Below are positions 6,249 to 35,500 of a DNA stretch of 37,977 nt, piece after piece. The notes below the pieces were generated by a model. The model saw nothing but the letters and a program-made list of their open reading frames with translations, searched no databases and was not told the DNA's origin. Numbering within the stretch: position 1 is the first letter of the stretch; the number at the start of each line of letters is the position of its first letter. The stretch covers positions 1 to 37,977 of the forward strand of contig JAHLJZ010000137.1 in the NCBI GenBank assembly GCA_025602915.1, in the 5' to 3' direction. Origin of the DNA: Paraphysoderma sedebokerense (taxonomy: Eukaryota > Blastocladiomycota > Physodermatomycetes > Physodermatales > Physodermataceae). The position numbers and the translations under genes are program-made.

Positions 6249-8313
6249 TTAAATGTATTCCGGTTTTAATTCCAACCCACCGTTGACTTTATTACTGATA
6301 GCTACTTTCTTCACGATAGTGCTCAATAAACTTTTGTTTCGTGAGTCTTTCTTCAGTTTCTTTTTGACTTTTCCTATCAAATCCTTCGTTTGTATATTCG
6401 GATTAGCTTTAATAATTGCAATTATTTCAGCTTCAGTTATGAGATGTTCGTCAGATGATGTCGACGAAACGGTAGGCGAAGCAGCGGTAGAGGATGAGGA
6501 CGGGGGAGATGACGGTTTTAATTTTGCCTAGATAGCCATTGAATCCAAAGGTCAGAGAGCAAGAGACGTCAATTTAAAAGCAGCAAATCACCTTTTTTAC
6601 AGCATCTTTATCCTGCAGTAACTCAGACTCAGACGGAGCCGGCCTCTTCTTCGTTACGGTGGAGGCAGCAGGAGAGGAGGGACCAGAACTGAGATCCTTT
6701 TTGGCTTTAACATTAGATCTCTTCTTGCTAACGTCAAGTTTTGGCTTCGCGGCTCCATTACTTTTACCAGGAGAACCAACGGAATTCGGTCGTTTCTGAA
6801 ACTCCTGCGACTGCTGAGACGGCGAATCTTTGACTTCTTCTTCCAAATCTTCCTTGTCGTCCTAGTGACCAAGACTATTAGATTTGATCTGAAGAGAGGA
6901 ACACATCGTGACACCATACCGAGTCGGCATATGGGTCGCTGTCTTCATCGCTTGCGTAGGCTTCGTTTTTGTCATATTTGTGGATTAACTTTCGCGTCTC
7001 CTATAAAGCCGATTGAGTTAAGCAAATGCCTACGAGCAAATCATCCAAGCCTTTGAGTACACACATGACCAGTGGAATCAAGCTTATCTTCGTCTTCATC
7101 TTCCGCCTCTTCATCAGATGCTCTAAGTCGCTCGTAATCTTTGGTTTTGGGCTCTTCTTTCTTCTCTTCTTCACCGTGTTCAAAAACGTCTTCTTCGTCA
7201 TCTTGAAATTCCTCCCCAATATCGAAATCAAGTTCATCCAAGTCCCCGCTTGTTTTTATTTTCTGTTTGACTACGCTGTCTTCGTCCTGGTCGAACCTGC
7301 ACAGAAATTAGCATGATCTATTACGTCTAAAAACAGCATGATGTACATTAAAACAAACATACCCGATATTATCAGCAATTTTAAACTTGCCCTTGCTAGG
7401 CTTCGCGTCATTGATTTCTTCGTCCTTTATGCCTTTAAGTTTGCGCATCATCCATCGATCGACCTTCTCATTTTGTTTGGAGAACTATATTAAGAGTGAG
7501 TCACCAACCGCTACTTGCAGAATAATTGTGCTACTAGAGGAAGATTGTACCGATGCATCGGCTTCGTCGCTTGTCAAAGTCTTGTATTTCAACTTGGGAT
7601 TAAACTTGTACCAGTTGTCAGCTGGTACCACTTTGAAACCGTCCTCCTGCAAACCACAGGACAAAACAGAAGAAATGCAACGTCGCAAGTTAGCCAAGTC
7701 AGATATCCGTAACAAACTTCATCCGGGAATCCAACACACGATGCAATATCACTTCCTTTAATTGCACAGCCAGTGCCATCAAATTTTCCTAAGAAAATGT
7801 AGCAGATTTTTCAACTGTAGATAACGCTTTCGAGCTAAGTTTCAATCCACTGGATCATGTAAACTAAATACTAACCGAAAACATAAACAAAACGTAATTA
7901 GAACTTTGACCTCCTTCCAAATTGCCCATATACAGATTATCCCCTTCATCGTCCTCTAAAATCCATGGAACACTTTCGGCCTTCTTTTTCAATCTGTCTT
8001 CTTCGTCCTGTGTTTCGATCTGCCTCACTTTTTTCTTGAACAAATTGGTTTTGCTCCATGATCCACTCGGGGCGACCAGAGCTTTATTGATTCCTCCAGC
8101 AGAGGATGACGTGGATGCCTCAGAAGCAGCTTGGGCCTGCTGTGCTAAAAGTTCTTCTTCAGTCGGAAGAGTACGTCTCTGCAGTCGTACAGGAGGTGTG
8201 AATTTTGAGATGTCAACGGGTTTGGGCGTGTGGAATTTGAGGATATGATGTGGGTAGGCTTTGGTGGATGACACTAATTTGAATTCCGAATACGATGGCT
8301 TCTGCTGAGACAT
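6249..8313 (-). CDS. TFG1: TFIIF alpha subunit (RAP74/Tfg1), 7 exons
   Basis: Exons 8313-7876, 7646-7551, 7484-7363, 7296-7065, 7000-6920, 6861-6592 and 6527-6249 give 505 residues. This is the large subunit of general transcription factor TFIIF, which binds RNA polymerase II in the nucleus. The N-terminal dimerisation barrel is clear: PWILEDDEGDNLYMGNLEGG, then YVLFMFSEDGFKVVPADNWY and KFNPKLKYKTLTSDEA. The middle is acidic and disordered (DELDFDIGEEFQDDEEDVFE, EDEDEDK), followed by a Ser/Lys-rich basic part. The C-terminal winged helix is complete (TEAEIIAIIKANPNIQTKDL, KKKLKKDSRNKSLLSTIVKK, final LELKPEYI). Splice sites were set by these alignments. Introns 1 (229 nt), 2 (66 nt) and 4 (64 nt) are good; the last donor (GTGATT) and the GTGTGT donor after residue His are weaker. 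It shares an intergenic region with PPIL3, transcribed the other way. Confidence 0.95.
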
Positions 8314-8848
8314 GATTTTATAATGTGTTAAGAGAGGATTTAAATTTCTAAAACGAGGGAGGTGTGCCTAGCGGGTCTTTAGGCGCAAAATTCAATACTT
8401 GAACACAAACTTCCGCTCGGAGAATTCATTCAGTGATTTGTTTTTCTCTTTTGTTTTTCTCTGATTTCGTAGTTTATATTTAAATGTGCGAAAGATTATG
8501 TTTGGTTCTTTTCCGTTTATTAAGTAATAAATGAAGCAGCTAATGTTGGAGCACCTATTTTCTTTGAAAAACGCTTTTGTGCGAATCCTCATATGTCCTC
8601 CCCATGTAATGAATTCGTCTATCTTCGATGGAATTAGTAAATATATTCGACTAATAGCAATATATTGTTTAGCCTATATAAAGGATTAACAAGGATCGTT
8701 CAACTTATGTGTAATGTAAAGTGTAATTAATGGCCAGCTAAACTGAACTTCTTTGGCCGGCCCCCGAAAAATCATGACATTCTTCTTCCGACTGCCGATA
8801 GTTTTAACTACCTTCTAGATCTGTACGCAGCCATAACATCAAACTATC
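8314..8848. other. Divergent promoter region, TFIIF alpha / PPIL3
   Basis: About 535 bases between two divergently transcribed housekeeping genes. AT-rich, with no open frame of note. A TATATAAAGG-like string near 8675-8685 is about 165 bases before the PPIL3 ATG, too far to be a confident TATA box. Confidence 0.4.
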
Positions 8849-19882: not shown

Positions 19883-22800
19883 ATGTTGAAGCCGTCGCTG
19901 TTCCCCCTCCTTGCAATCCTCCCCCTCCTCTGGCCATACGTCGCCGCCGACCTGTTCAAAATCGGCCTCATCCTGCCCTTCTCATTCGGTACGTCCGCCT
20001 CCCCGTCACCCTATCTCCGCTCTCCACTTCTTTTTTCTCCATTACTAACTCTGACTGCCTTTTGGTTACCCGTTGTCCAGAGTACGACCAAACATCTGCC
20101 GAATCCATTTCAAATGCACTTAATTTATCCTTGGTCGAGGAAAATCGATACGCCAGTACCTTCGGCCATGAATTCCAGTTAGTCATGACGGACTCTGGGT
20201 CCGCAAAGTCAAAGGCCGTTAGTGAAGCCTTGAAATTAGCAACCACGGATGGAGTCAGCGGAATAATAGGTGAGTTGTCGCATATCGGCCCTGCTTGAAT
20301 GTTTAAGTCGTTGGAACATCATTAATCAAAGTTTAAAAAACCAAAAAAATAAAAAATTAAAAAAAAATAGGAGGCTACGTCTCTACTGCTACCCAAGTAA
20401 TCGCACTTGCTCTAAATCGATACCATATATTCCAATGCAGTGGATCGGCAACCTTGAGTGATTTGAGCCTTAAATCCGATTATCCCAATTTTTTTCGGAC
20501 GATTCCGAGTGATGCGTATCAGGGGAGAGCCCTTGCTAAATACGTTCATAGCATGGGTTGGCGGCAGGCCGCTATCTTGGCCGGGAATGACGCTTATAGT
20601 TTAAGCAGTATGTTAATTATGCTCCTTATTCAAACTCTTACTGTGAGATGTCATTAACAATCTCCGATCAAAAGTAAGCCAAACGTTTGCCTCGACCGCC
20701 GAATCCGAGCTAAACATGACCATTACTACAAATCAAGTTTATCTCGCTAACGCCACAAATTATACAGTCAATGTACAAGCAGTCAAGCAATCCGGTAGTC
20801 GAATCATCATGTTATTTGGATTTGATCAAGACGCCATCAAGATACTGAGGGAAGCAAGGTATGTCATCAAACTCTACCATATTGCATGTTACACAATTAA
20901 CCGACAATAAAAATTATGCAGAAAACAAGGCATTGTTGGTCCCGATTATGTTTGGATTGGAAGCGAAGGAATTTATTCCATCATAGAGTTTATGAATAAT
21001 CCCAACGAGACCTATACTGTAGAGGACAGGGAAAATCTGAGGGGGATGCTGATTCCATTTCCGAACGAGCGACCGAGCTATACCCGCAAACATGCAGAAT
21101 TTATTCAGCGACTCGGAAGAGAACCCGAACCGTATGTTCTATTTTTCAAAGACTGTCTTACCAGTATGGTCCGTGGTATCATCAATGTTGCATCAAGCGG
21201 AAAAAATGTCACAGATCCTTCTGTCAGTTTAAAGGATTTTCTCACCCCATTTGCTGGCGTTACCGGAAACGTGACATGGGATGACAAGGGAGACCGAGCA
21301 GGAGAGTACATTATGTACAACATTCAGAAAAACGGCACAACTTATGCACGAAAAAGAGTTTCTCTAATCACCGATTCACGAGTCATTCCAATTTCGACGC
21401 CCCTATTTTACTCACAGACGCCCACTATACCTCCCGATAGTGCAATTTTACGACCCGATTACCCTGTTTTCTCGATGCCTGGTGTGATCGTCATTCTCGT
21501 TCTCTACATCAATGCGTTCATCGTGATCGTCGGAACTTGCTTTTATCTCTATCGAAAACGTCAAACGCCACAAGTGCGCCACATGTCTCTTCTATTTGTT
21601 CTATTGATTGCGACAGGATTAATTCTATTAGGATGCTCTATATTGACATGGATTGATATTCCTACAGAGATGACCTGCATATTTAAGCTCTACCTCTTTA
21701 ATGCGGGTTATGCTGTGTTAATGGGATCGCTGTTAATGAAAACCTGGAGGATATTTAAAATCTTCGATAGTTCCTGTGTCATCAAATCCCGCCTGGGTGA
21801 TAAGAAATTATTGATCGGTGTTGCAGGGATTGTGGGAGTAGAATTGCTTTTAGTGACAATCTGGACAGTTCTCAGTCCGCCCAAGCCTACTAAATTCTAT
21901 AAACCAGAATTTTACTCATACAAATGTGTAAGTTCAGATCAAACCGTCGAACTTTTGATGAATATTTTGGTCATTGCGTATAATGGCATATTACTCTTTT
22001 TTGCCAGTGTTTTGGCTTTTAAAACAAGAAAGGTCTACTCGCAGTTCAGGTAAACCTCACTACTTCCATCAATAATACACGTACCACCGATCCGCTGACT
22101 TGATTCATTTTAGGGAATCGGTTTACATCATGTATTCTGTGTCAAACATCATTTTATCAGGAATCATCGTCATTCCCATTCTTTTTTTCTTAAGCGATGT
22201 GATGCCTACCGGTACATTCTACATTAAAACTCTCGGTGTCTACTATGGCGGCGCTTTTGTCTATTTCCTCCTCATTGGACGTATCGCTATCCAGATATAC
22301 TCTGCATCGACTCGCAGACCGTATAAAGTACCTATGCTGAGGGGTTTAACGAATGTAAAAGTCATGGATGGATTCTTTGATAGCCTTGGGAATGATAAGG
22401 AAGAAGAAGTTAGTCTTAGTAGCAGTGGATGTGTTTTACGTGGAACTTTCCCCGTGAAGGAATGTTCATTGTTCGGTACTTGGAGGAAAACTAAACTTAT
22501 GGTGTTACAAATTTCTGGCGAATATTATCTGACAATGGCCAGGATGAAAGCTTCCTCTCAGAAGGAAATGAAGGTAAATCTTCCTTTTGATTCTACTTTT
22601 CTGTCGCTTCAATTTGAGTTCCGTCTAACAATTTATCTTGTACTCCTTTGCAGTCTGGAAGTATCCACAAACTCTCCACAATTATGTTAAATCCCCAGCT
22701 TACCATTAGCAGCACTTTGCCATTATCGACAACGAACACCAACACCGACACCACGACCACTCTAGCACCACCATCCCCTGATTCATCTCGTCCCCCTACT

Positions 22801-23712: not shown

Positions 23713-26298
23713 CTACGACTCCAACAATTTTCTTAGTCCTTCTAATCTCCCTAAATTAAACACATTAGGAGCACTTTTCACGATGACTTCACATATATTT
23801 TTTCTATTTCCTCTGCCAATTTCAACAGAATCTAACCTCGAAACAGCTTGATCTAAAATGTTACTAATCGTATTCAACAAGTCAGATTTTAAGTCTGCTC
23901 GGGCTAACACTTCAGAATCTGATGCCCCGGAGAGAATAGAAATCACTGTTTTATGGATTGATGAGAAATAATGATTTTGGAGAGACACTGGACCGGTGGT
24001 TGTTATTGAATTGGTGGAGAGAGGGAGAGTGAAGGCCGGTAAGATAGTTTGGTAGAGGAATGAAAGGAGGGGAAGGGTTAATTTTTCGGGGTGAGACTAA
24101 AATGAGGTCGAGAAGAACAAGGAAAGCTTGGTCAGTATAAACTCATATCAAGACGGAAAGTGATTATAGATAAATGTTGAAAGGAGGGAAAAACAAAACC
24201 TTGATCCATCGGTTCATCATATTAATAAAACTCCACCAAAATGATTCTTCAACTCTAAATACTTCGTAGACATCTTCTCGCAATAGCGGCCAACAAAGTC
24301 TACTCAGCCGACTCCACCAACCGGAACTTAAACATTCCAAAATCATACTTTCCATCACGATTAACCCTAAAGTCGGTTTCTTCTGTCCTTGCTCATTCTG
24401 ATTACCACCGGCGCTACCCGTATTTTCAACTGAATGTCCATATTCACAAATATATCCCCACGCGATCAAATCAGTAGCATCGCCAGCCTCGTAGCGTCTG
24501 AAAGCCGCTTCATTAGGATTGTTTGTTTTGGAATTGACGGGATTAGATCTCATAAAATCGACAAGGTGTTGATATACATTGGTGATGACTTGTTTGTCGT
24601 ATTTTGGAATTCGAAAATCTTGGCTTGAAATCAACTGTGAAGCCGATAAACCCAGATGAATAACGGTTGACAACCATTTCACGGGACCGAGGTGTTCCTA
24701 TGTTAATTAAACGTTTTAAGTTCACAATAACCGTCAGTTGTCACAATTGTCATAACAAAAAATGATTAAAATTAGAACCTTCGTTATCGTTTCTTTTCTT
24801 TCTGCGAGGTCTTTTAAGCATGCAACTAATTGCTTCGACAACAAGCTCAATACAAATGGGTCACCCACGACCATCGCAAAATCACCGAATAAAGGATTTC
24901 CCCGTTCATAATTCACTTCTTCTTTCTTACCTAGATCAAAAAACTCTTTGATGGCCCGGATTCGGTTTGAGTCCATATACTGTTCTCGAAGACATTGATC
25001 TAGGTTATACGCTAATTCATGAAGCGGATCATTTTCGTAGATCTTGAGAATCCAAGAAGAAAAGGGAATGCAAACATGAGTTGAATTCAGAATCGTAATA
25101 AAATTGCCTAGTTCAATTTAAAAATCAAATGAATCATCGCTACACACCTCTCGCCTCACTTTTTCTTGCATTCCAACCAACAAATCAATTCTTAAACTCC
25201 CAAAAGCCATATCCCCGGTCTGGAATAAAAACGACCTAAGCTGACTCAGCACTTGATTATACAAGGTTATATCTGTGTCAATCCATTCCACTAATTTCTG
25301 GATTACAGGATGCTGAATCCTACAGTGCAAACATTCAATATTGATTCATTGAGATGGACTCGCTATAGGGATCACGGTCAGCCGAACACACCTGTTAATT
25401 ACTTCATCTTTTGTAGAACGCATTTCTAAATGCAACATCCGTCGATTATTATCATTGCGGTATTCGTCCAACATGATTCGACCAATATACGATTTAAAAT
25501 GAGTCGGATTGTGTTTCCATATCAGGCGTTTTAGACCTACAGGTAGTGTCTAAAAATATCGTAAATCCCAATTCGAAGCACAGTTGAATAAGGAGTCAGT
25601 ATCAGTAACAAAAATTATACAACACCACAGGAATGCCCGAAATGAAGACCTAATCTGGCGCCAACGGGTCCACACATAGCAAGAAAAAAGAGCGGCATAC
25701 TTTACCTCGAATAACTTCAGATCTGTCGTAAATGTATTTAAAGTATCCACATCAACGTCTGGTATTTTCCTCATAACCAAATCAACCAACAAAGGTTGAA
25801 TACAAGGGACATGTATGAAGGGTATGTACTTTTGTAACAAATCCGTCAACCTGTATTAGAGTCAACCGTGGGTAGTATCAAATGGTAGAGTGAAGGAAGG
25901 ATTAGTAGACAAATTAATGATTAATATTTATCGGAACAAAAATTGAAATATATACTGTTGCTCGCTTAAACTGTCAGATTTCACTTTATTGATAAGAACC
26001 GCCACATAAGCTTCCAAACATTTAGTATGAATATTGTATCGTTTCACTCGAGTTGAAATAAACGGAAAAACATATTGAGAAAAGGGATATAGGTAATTCG
26101 TTAAGGATTTATTTTGTTGGTAAAAATGATTTGAGCAGTATTCACAAAATTCTAATTTGGAAAAAGGATATGATTTAGACCATGGTCAGTCTGTATTGAT
26201 TTGATGACATCGGCCGGATTTGCCGATGTAAGTGCTGTGCGAATCGTCTGAGCTGATTGTGGACCTAGGAGTCGTTCATTCTTTGTATCGATTTCCAT
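23713..26298 (-). CDS. NELFB: Negative elongation factor B (NELF-B/COBRA1) homologue, 8 exons
   Basis: Exons 26298-26181, 26151-25956, 25850-25706, 25549-25392, 25319-25148, 25042-24779, 24697-24200 and 24096-23713 give 644 residues (human 580). NELF-B is a HEAT-like scaffold of the NELF complex, which holds RNA polymerase II in promoter-proximal pausing. Matching blocks run in the right order: LTDLLQKYIPFIHVPCIQPL (human LEDLLEKSFSLVKMPSLQPV), ITLYNQVLSQLRSFLFQT with FGSLRIDLLVGMQE (human VKLYDMVLQFLRTLFLRT, YCTLRAELLMSLHD), REIYENDPLHELAYNLDQCL with REQYMDS, and PLFGDFAMVVGDPFVLSLLS (human QVLGDLSMILCDPFAINTLA). The start Met gives an N-terminus like that of the family (TIRTALTSANPADVIKSIQT). 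Intron 1 as drawn is only 29 nt, so that junction is unsure. The 3' end faces GPCR 1 at 247 bases. Confidence 0.88.
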
Positions 26299-32589: not shown

Positions 32590-35500
32590 TTATATCCTGG
32601 ATTTTGACCTGCTATTAGAACTTGAAGAAGCCTTACTCTCAATTGCAAGCGTATTGGCTTTTAATAAATCCCACCACAAATCAAACGTAGGCTTGTCAGG
32701 GAACTGGAGCAACAGAGTTTTGTTTGCATTCACAAAATCGATACATTTGTCGATCTGATCACTTTTAACCACCCTTGTGAGGGAGACGTCGTACAATACG
32801 CACGGCTAAAGTATACAATAATGTGAGTAACTATATAAACGACTGAACATATAGAAGAACGGGCGGGAACAAACTTCATGAGCAGGTCTTCTTTTGTCGC
32901 GAAATCCCAATAGATTTTTAGACTTGAAATATATAAGCAGATGATTGCGCCAAGTACCGAAAATTGATCCAGCTTCTTTTACGGGAATCTCGATTTGTAT
33001 AGTTTGCTGTAAATAATACAAACGGTTGGATATCGGACATTTAAGAAGATCGAAATACATACATCAACTGATGCTGTAGCGGATAAAATCGTAGACATGT
33101 TTATTTTGCCCTCCCCTTGGGATTGCTTGGATTTTCCATGACTTATATTGTATACTTCATTCTTTGCGTCGGTGTAAATGCTAAAAACTATTCGGCCAAT
33201 CAAGCAGGTGTAAGCTACCGTCGTTGCATAGGAAAAAAAAGCCGTGCGAATGTAAAAGACAGTGGTAATTGATCCAGTCGAGTTGATAATTGGGAACAAA
33301 ACAATGACTGAAATGCACACGTTCTGGACTGTGTATCCGATCCACTGAGATTCACGGTATCGAGATACAACTGAGCGCGTTTTAAACGCAAGGAAGAGAA
33401 CGAAAGCAAGCAGAATGCTGCCATACAAATAAATTATGTCAGACTAGAGTAAATATCATCGCAAAAAAAGAGAGACTGACAAATTGTAGACGTTGATAAC
33501 CCAATTCAATTCCATCGGACGGACTTGAACGCAGGACGTGTATTGAATAGATAAGCTCTTGAGAACAGTGGTAACAGGTCGAGGAGGATCCATCAGTGTT
33601 ACAATGGTCAATAGAACGATTTCTATTAAAACCAAAAGGCTCGAAACGATAAGAAGGTTCCTGTCTTTAAGGCCATTGAGTTGTGCCATTTGGGGATTAT
33701 CTAAAAAATAGTGCAATTCCATGTGAGTTCATGCCGCCAATACGATGACACCTGTAAGCAATTCTATACCGAAAATCCTGTACATCGATCCAAATTTAGC
33801 AACATAAATAATATGAGTTCAATAATAAATAAGATGGGACCATACCTGTATATTCGAAACACCTTGACTGCCAAATTACTAATGACAATACCAAAACCAA
33901 TCCACTAACACGCATCTGAAACGTTAACTCTGTACTCTTGTGACTAGTAGTATGCAACATCCACTTACAGGAACCCACATTTGTGCCAGACATTGGTCTT
34001 CAGTCGGGACACCGATAGACGTGAAAATAGAGGTATAAATGAGCAGTATCTGCAAGAAAAGTTTTAGATTCCGACTAGTCTGGAGCTAGTGTAACATAAT
34101 TAAACTCACCCCGAGTGCTATCAGATAGACCAAGTTTAAAGAAAGGGATTTGACAACTTTACTATCTCTCTCTCGATATAAGATGATCACCGAACCAACA
34201 ACAACCAATATCATAATCAAATGTAAAGCAACAAGAATTGCAACACCCGGATCATCCCATGAGACAACGATAGAGTAAATGCTCGCAAGGCCTGAGGGGA
34301 CAGAAGATGTGCCATCATAAAATCGGAGGACATCCAATTTCTCGAACAGATTGGTTATGGCGTTGTAGACGAATACAACTTTCTCTGTAGTGTTATAGTT
34401 GTTGATAATTGCATAGTTACCGGACCGGTCAGCATTCGAGTCGAAAGCCACAGTCCCAGTGGCTCCTTCAAATGTTAGACCGCCAACAAACTGTAGCGCA
34501 TCGATACCAGAATTTGCCCGATCGAGAATTTCTGTCAATGTTAGCGACGTATTCTGTTGGAGTAAGTGTGCGATTCCGTGGACTGACATTGCGAATGAGT
34601 TGCACTGTAAGTATTAAAATGTAATCTGTGCACAAATATGAGACATGCTTACCGTATGTGGCGAGGCAATCTCTAAAAAACAAAGTATAAGGTGTAGGTT
34701 CGGAGCCGTAGTGTTGGCGGAATTGATCAATGGTGGCATTTGCAATCTCCGTCCGAGGGTTTTCCATTGGAAAGGAAGCCAGCATTCCATTCACGGTCTC
34801 TCTATATTCACTTTGATATGCACTTGTGTCTCGCACCATATCCATCGTTGCATAGAAACTTTCCGCGCCGATCCACACATAATCTTTACCGATCAGCCCA
34901 TTCTTCTTTGCGGTGAGCAAAAGCTCCGGACCACAAGTTGGAAACTGAGGTCCGCAGTCGTTATGAGAGAAGACTAAAAAAATCCTTGCGCCGCTTTCTT
35001 TCAGTTGCAGTATATTTGCGGTAAGATCGACAGAGCTTGGAGTGTGGAGTACATTGGCCAGGATAGTGACAGATAATTTCGAGGCTTCTTCCTGAAATGC
35101 TTGGGCGAGGCCGAGACCGTATTCATCGTTGGCAGTAATTATGGCAACATGTGTCCAATTCATGAACTAGACGCGGATATAGAATATGAGAAGATTGGTT
35201 GACACGAGTGAGAACGTTCATGCAAGCCCAAACCTTGACATATCGAGCGAGCACGACACCTTGAATATTGTCACTGGCCCTGAGTAAATGTTGAAAAGTT
35301 AACATCGACAAATAATTTAGAGTTGAACCAAGATGATAGAATGGGATACATACACTGTACGGAAAAAGTACTGATAATCCGTTTTATTTGATAAATCGGC
35401 ACTAGTGGAGGAGCCGGAACATTGGAACACTTTAAATTGATTTAGTGCTAATGCAGACGGTATTGTATTTCTTGAATAGAACTCCCCGATAGTAGCGAAC

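Follow-up and report, generated by a model that had tools for sequence, protein, structure and literature searches.

The NELF-B locus

The window is the whole stretch of 37,977 nucleotides analysed here, positions 1 to 37,977 of contig JAHLJZ010000137.1 from the assembly GCA_025602915.1 of the blastocladiomycete Paraphysoderma sedebokerense. On its minus strand, from 26298 to 23713, lies a gene modelled from reading frames and splice signals as eight exons encoding 627 residues, which is matched by the Pfam profile COBRA1, by NELF-B sequences of the PDB and by the protein P0001. The ATG is found at 26298 and the stop codon ends at 23713, in agreement with the limits 23713..26298 given in a preliminary description of this DNA. 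The same description had reported four blocks resembling NELF-B; the peptides LYNQVLSQLRSFLFQT and FGDFAMVVGDPF that it quoted are indeed present, in exons 5 and 6 respectively, but the model contains eight exons.

The exons, all on the minus strand, are located at 26298-26173 (exon 1), 26092-25956 (exon 2), 25850-25706 (exon 3), 25549-25392 (exon 4), 25319-25148 (exon 5), 25042-24779 (exon 6), 24697-24200 (exon 7) and 24096-23713 (exon 8). Introns 2 to 7 are all of the GT-AG type and measure 72 to 156 nt. Exon ends were picked by frame, splice signals and comparison by eye with human NELF-B, and the similarity tests were done afterwards.

P0001 is identical to the model at 447 of 466 residues (96%) and can be regarded as coming from a near relative that carries the same NELF-B protein. 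It runs without gaps across the joins 4-5, 5-6, 6-7 and 7-8; for the joins 1-2, 2-3 and 3-4 the support is the gene model itself. P0001 may derive from spliced RNA or from a gene prediction made independently, and its longest contig, of 1876 bases, would also fit the same genomic stretch including four introns. A frame-1 stretch had suggested that one more exon separates exons 7 and 8; this was rejected because P0001 runs from exon 7 straight into exon 8.

Identity of the protein

When the genome was searched in six frames with COBRA1, two matches were obtained, both above the cut-off and both inside this gene, one near exon 6 (24788..25051, minus strand, 40.7 bits) and one near exon 5 (25127..25324, minus strand, 26.6 bits); none of 14 control genomes gave a match in the same search. 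Once spliced, the 627-residue protein reaches 137.3 bits with COBRA1 (PF06209; cut-off 22, E = 8.3e-40), the outcome of the profile comparison that the preliminary description had proposed. Its residues 11-384 are colinear with residues 8-382 of NELF-B in the PDB (E = 5.1e-36). Because COBRA1 alone passes its Pfam cut-off and NELF-B accounts for 6/6 of the PDB matches with E up to 1, the locus is considered, on the grounds of its sequence, to encode a true NELF-B, as had been suggested, and not a member of another HEAT-repeat family. Helical repeat proteins can look alike, and a member of another HEAT-repeat family could in principle merely resemble NELF-B; nothing found here favours this reading, and the uniform PDB matches speak against it, as does DUF16, the one further Pfam row with E up to 1 (E 0.021), whose 15.7 bits fall short of the cut-off of 40. 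Its probability is accordingly taken to be negligible.

A second comparison was made with P0002, classed as an animal-like NELF-B, which aligns with NELF-B of the PDB near end to end (residues 15-569 to 4-560, E = 6.4e-190). The fungal protein shares with it 105 of 367 aligned residues, in an alignment that stops at residue 390. When fungal residues 1-384 were set against residues 1-405 of P0002, the score was 346, a value reached by none of 300 shuffles (average 38). The N-terminal similarity is thus far above chance. When the mixed alignment A1 served as the profile, P0001 was the sole match. AlphaFold models were of low confidence, both for P0001, which was all-helical (mean pLDDT 44.9), and for P0003 (mean pLDDT 49.2).

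A NELF-C/D partner in the same genome

NELF-C/D, which the preliminary description had proposed to look for in the same genome, was found. In the genome search, the Pfam profile TH1 (NELF-C/D) matches contig C44 in two exons, and the gene model built at C44:91896-94830 (positions 3397-6331 of L005) has 14 exons and encodes 625 residues (TH1 E = 5.2e-80). Its introns, of 57 to 143 nt, are GT-AG in 13/13 cases. Compared with NELF-C/D of the PDB, the model reaches E = 8.4e-57; NELF-C/D accounts for eight of its ten PDB matches, the other two being secretagogin with E values of 0.36 and 0.62. NCBI holds a protein of the same assembly recorded as 'TH1 protein, partial [Paraphysoderma sedebokerense]', which agrees with the model at 564 of 568 aligned residues. 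This partial NCBI protein parts from the model at its own end, which is unlike the homologous one, and the 14-exon model extends the protein to 625 residues. A complete NELF-C/D gene is thus predicted elsewhere in the P. sedebokerense genome, which encodes at least the NELF-B/C core.

Other factors were also searched for. Neither the N-terminal domain of NELF-A (PF23553), a further subunit that the preliminary description had proposed to look for, nor HEXIM (PF15313) gave a match in the genome; both profiles likewise failed to match any control genome (14 genomes for NELF-A), so that these searches had no positive control. As for NELF-E, its RRM domain is common to many other proteins and hence does not make a specific probe. 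The fungal NELF-C matches an N-terminal NELF-C fragment of 8jj6 as well as the NELF-C of the NELF-A/C crystal 5l3x, and it retains the part that binds NELF-A. Homologues of NELF-A and NELF-C are described in Dictyostelium and a green alga in a passage of PMC4940160. Since NELF-A occurs in these organisms and the fungal NELF-C keeps the NELF-A-binding part, a diverged NELF-A may have been overlooked in the genome.

Fungal origin and neighbouring genes

The surroundings of the gene bear on its origin. An alpha-isopropylmalate synthase-like gene, with a LeuA dimerisation domain and an HMGL-like domain, is found 207 bases upstream of NELF-B. The preliminary description had also relied on a WOPR gene on the same contig. 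Two WOPR (Gti1/Pac2) matches above the cut-off do lie within 2204-2654 on the minus strand; they are weak (25.2 and 24.1 bits for a cut-off of 23.6) and one has an internal stop. The other 20 of the 22 WOPR matches in the genome are located elsewhere. Among them, matches with the same scores as those at 2204-2654 were observed at C25:272899-273349, so that the contig end in question may represent a duplication or a haplotype that overlaps.

The gene might instead be non-fungal, brought in by contamination from an animal or another eukaryote or by recent horizontal transfer. Nothing was found here in favour of this possibility, other than that the best-known fungi have no NELF. It is countered by the isopropylmalate synthase-like neighbour and the WOPR matches, by the NCBI record that names NELF-C of the same assembly as a Paraphysoderma sedebokerense protein, and by the identity to the animal-like P0002 at only 105/367 aligned residues. 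The probability of a non-fungal origin of either kind is therefore very low, and animal contamination, already judged improbable in the preliminary description, is excluded for practical purposes.

Other features were noted in the window. At 20911-22053 on the plus strand lies a gene for a receptor of class C (7tm_3, glutamate/GABA-B type) that includes a ligand-binding domain. A further fragment, at 34086-34613 on the minus strand, has both of these domains just below their cut-offs; for both loci, the domain scan covered 10 of 29 frames. A weak match to TFIIF-alpha, another polymerase II factor, was seen at 7864-8367 on the minus strand (17.8 bits, below the cut-off of 27.1).

The two halves of NELF-B

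Similarity to known NELF-B is confined to the N-terminal part of the protein. The match with human NELF-B of the PDB (8uhg, 7ycx and 8jj6) stops at residue 384, and the remaining 243 residues display no detectable similarity to it. This segment, residues 385-627, comprises the rest of exon 7, intron 7 and exon 8 (23713..24547 on the minus strand, counted from the exon coordinates) and was not detectably similar to other NELF-B. Compared with residues 406-586 of P0002, it obtained a score of 28, which was reached by 191 of 300 shuffles. Hence, the C-terminal half, which NELF-E needs in mammals, is not recognisable by sequence when compared with P0002 and NELF-B of the PDB.

These two parts can be set against the mutational data on mammalian NELF-B reported in a passage of PMC10591015. 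Binding of NELF-A/C is lost when the first 78 residues are removed or when residue 183 or 194 is mutated, and binding of NELF-C is lost upon mutation at 144. NELF-E, in turn, no longer binds once residue 486 is mutated or the last 60 residues are missing (PMC10591015). The fungal protein thus has recognisable sequence over the region of the NELF-A/C-binding sites and none over that of the NELF-E-binding sites of mammals. This split leads to a biochemical prediction, namely that the fungal NELF-B would bind NELF-C and not NELF-E.

Evolutionary history and proposed role

According to a passage of PMC11482795, NELF-B and NELF-C/D are widespread in eukaryotes, were probably present in their common ancestor and have disappeared from S. 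pombe, S. cerevisiae, C. elegans and land plants. Both subunits of this core are likewise encoded in P. sedebokerense, in which the NELF-A domain and HEXIM were not found, in searches without positive control. Because that survey places NELF-B and NELF-C/D in the eukaryote ancestor, the presence of NELF-B in the fungal ancestor, as had been proposed for this locus, follows by inference. The history of the gene is most simply explained if it was kept since the fungal ancestor and lost in yeasts.

The preliminary description had, however, overrated the novelty of a fungal NELF-B. A passage of PMC10591015 already states that Fungi possess orthologues of NELFB and NELFC and not of NELFA and NELFE; the claim is the same, but that passage gives no species, whereas the genes are modelled here exon by exon in one species. 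With NELF-B and NELF-C already published for Fungi and for the eukaryotic ancestor in these parts of PMC10591015 and PMC11482795, the novelty is modest. The main text of PMC11482795 mentions fungi at one place, about CDKs, and its supplementary table may list fungi. No literature was found on NELF in early-diverging fungi or in Blastocladiomycota, nor on NELF pausing in Mucoromycota or chytrids. What is new here is an exon-level blastocladiomycete NELF-B, its complete NELF-C/D partner, the division of NELF-B into one half that is conserved and one that is unrecognisable, and a first intron of the minor type. As the two model yeasts have no NELF, fungi are easily overlooked in thinking on pausing.

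Taken as a whole, the best explanation, and one in which we have good confidence, is that P. sedebokerense has a true NELF-B orthologue and a NELF-B/C core that acts on early polymerase II. NELF-B would serve as a HEAT-repeat scaffold and hold NELF-C by its N-terminal half, the two forming the core complex. Together with DSIF, this core would bind early elongating RNA polymerase II and slow or stabilise it near gene starts. The C-terminal half of NELF-B would have lost, or never had, the animal dock for NELF-E. From the recognisable NELF-A/C-binding region and the unrecognisable NELF-E-binding region, we infer a B/C core devoid of the animal-type NELF-E arm. In human cells, NELF-B and NELF-C associate with RNA according to a passage of PMC4940160, and by analogy the fungal B/C core could still touch nascent RNA.

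NELF-B is one of the four subunits of the animal factor that causes RNA polymerase II to pause close to gene starts. The presence of NELF-B alone does not prove pausing. In a passage of PMC10591015, it is proposed that NELFB and NELFC may serve roles other than pausing in organisms without NELF-A and NELF-E, and that such orthologues have a more primal, pausing-independent role. The fungal protein could accordingly be a true NELF-B orthologue without a pausing role and act as a scaffold, cytoplasmic or of another kind; a role of this sort has been proposed for cytoplasmic NELFB and signalling kinases in mammals. The C-terminal half unlike that of animal-like NELF-B would fit such a role, as would the lack of NELF-A and HEXIM matches in searches that had no positive control. 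Nevertheless, P. sedebokerense has kept the NELF-C-binding half of NELF-B together with a full-length NELF-C, as befits a B/C complex, and a non-pausing scaffold is considered unlikely next to a B/C core acting on early polymerase II. That the fungal NELF-B/C represents a naturally occurring, minimal version of a pausing factor among fungi is put forward tentatively, and we are inclined to doubt it. A fungus with this core gives direct access to the question of whether NELF-B/C can pause polymerase II by itself, as well as to what was lost towards yeasts.

A first intron with minor-type signals

The first intron of NELF-B displays the signals of a U12-type intron at 26093..26171 on the minus strand, with the start ATATCCTT, the branch motif TCCTTAAC and the end TTAC, for a length of 79 nt as AT-AC. 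The stretch begins with ATATCCTTTTT at 26171 and contains TCCTTAAC followed by GAATTAC, letters that follow the pattern of U12-type AT-AC introns. Exact removal of the 79-nt AT-AC intron shifts the NELF-B frame by one base, whereas removal of 80 nt (26172-26093) preserves it, and the latter was used in the model. A 29-nt GT-AG intron at 26180-26152 also fits the frames, yet it was rejected because the 13 NELF-C introns measure 57 to 143 nt, U12-type signals are present from 26171 and the U12-type version gives a longer and better match with NELF-B of the PDB. With the latter version, this match rises from 117.2 bits (residues 58-401) to 127.6 bits (residues 11-384); the COBRA1 score is nearly the same for both versions (137.2 and 137.3 bits).

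PMC10639083, a survey across eukaryotes, describes minor introns in other fungi, and its main text does not mention Allomyces, Catenaria, Paraphysoderma or names in Blastoclad-; no literature was found that joins the minor spliceosome or U12-type introns with Mucoromycota. In the P. sedebokerense genome, a U6atac gene was detected with 39.8 bits (Rfam cut-off 33), together with a U12 RNA candidate below the Rfam cut-off (42.4 against 53 bits, E = 5.3e-6). Genome-wide, the pattern RTATCCTT, 40-70 bases, TCCTTRAC occurs at 50 places, including intron 1 of NELF-B. As controls, the pattern read backwards was found at six places and the pattern with the second motif reversed at five, two of which overlap the 50 places. 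Eight of these 50 make up four identical pairs.
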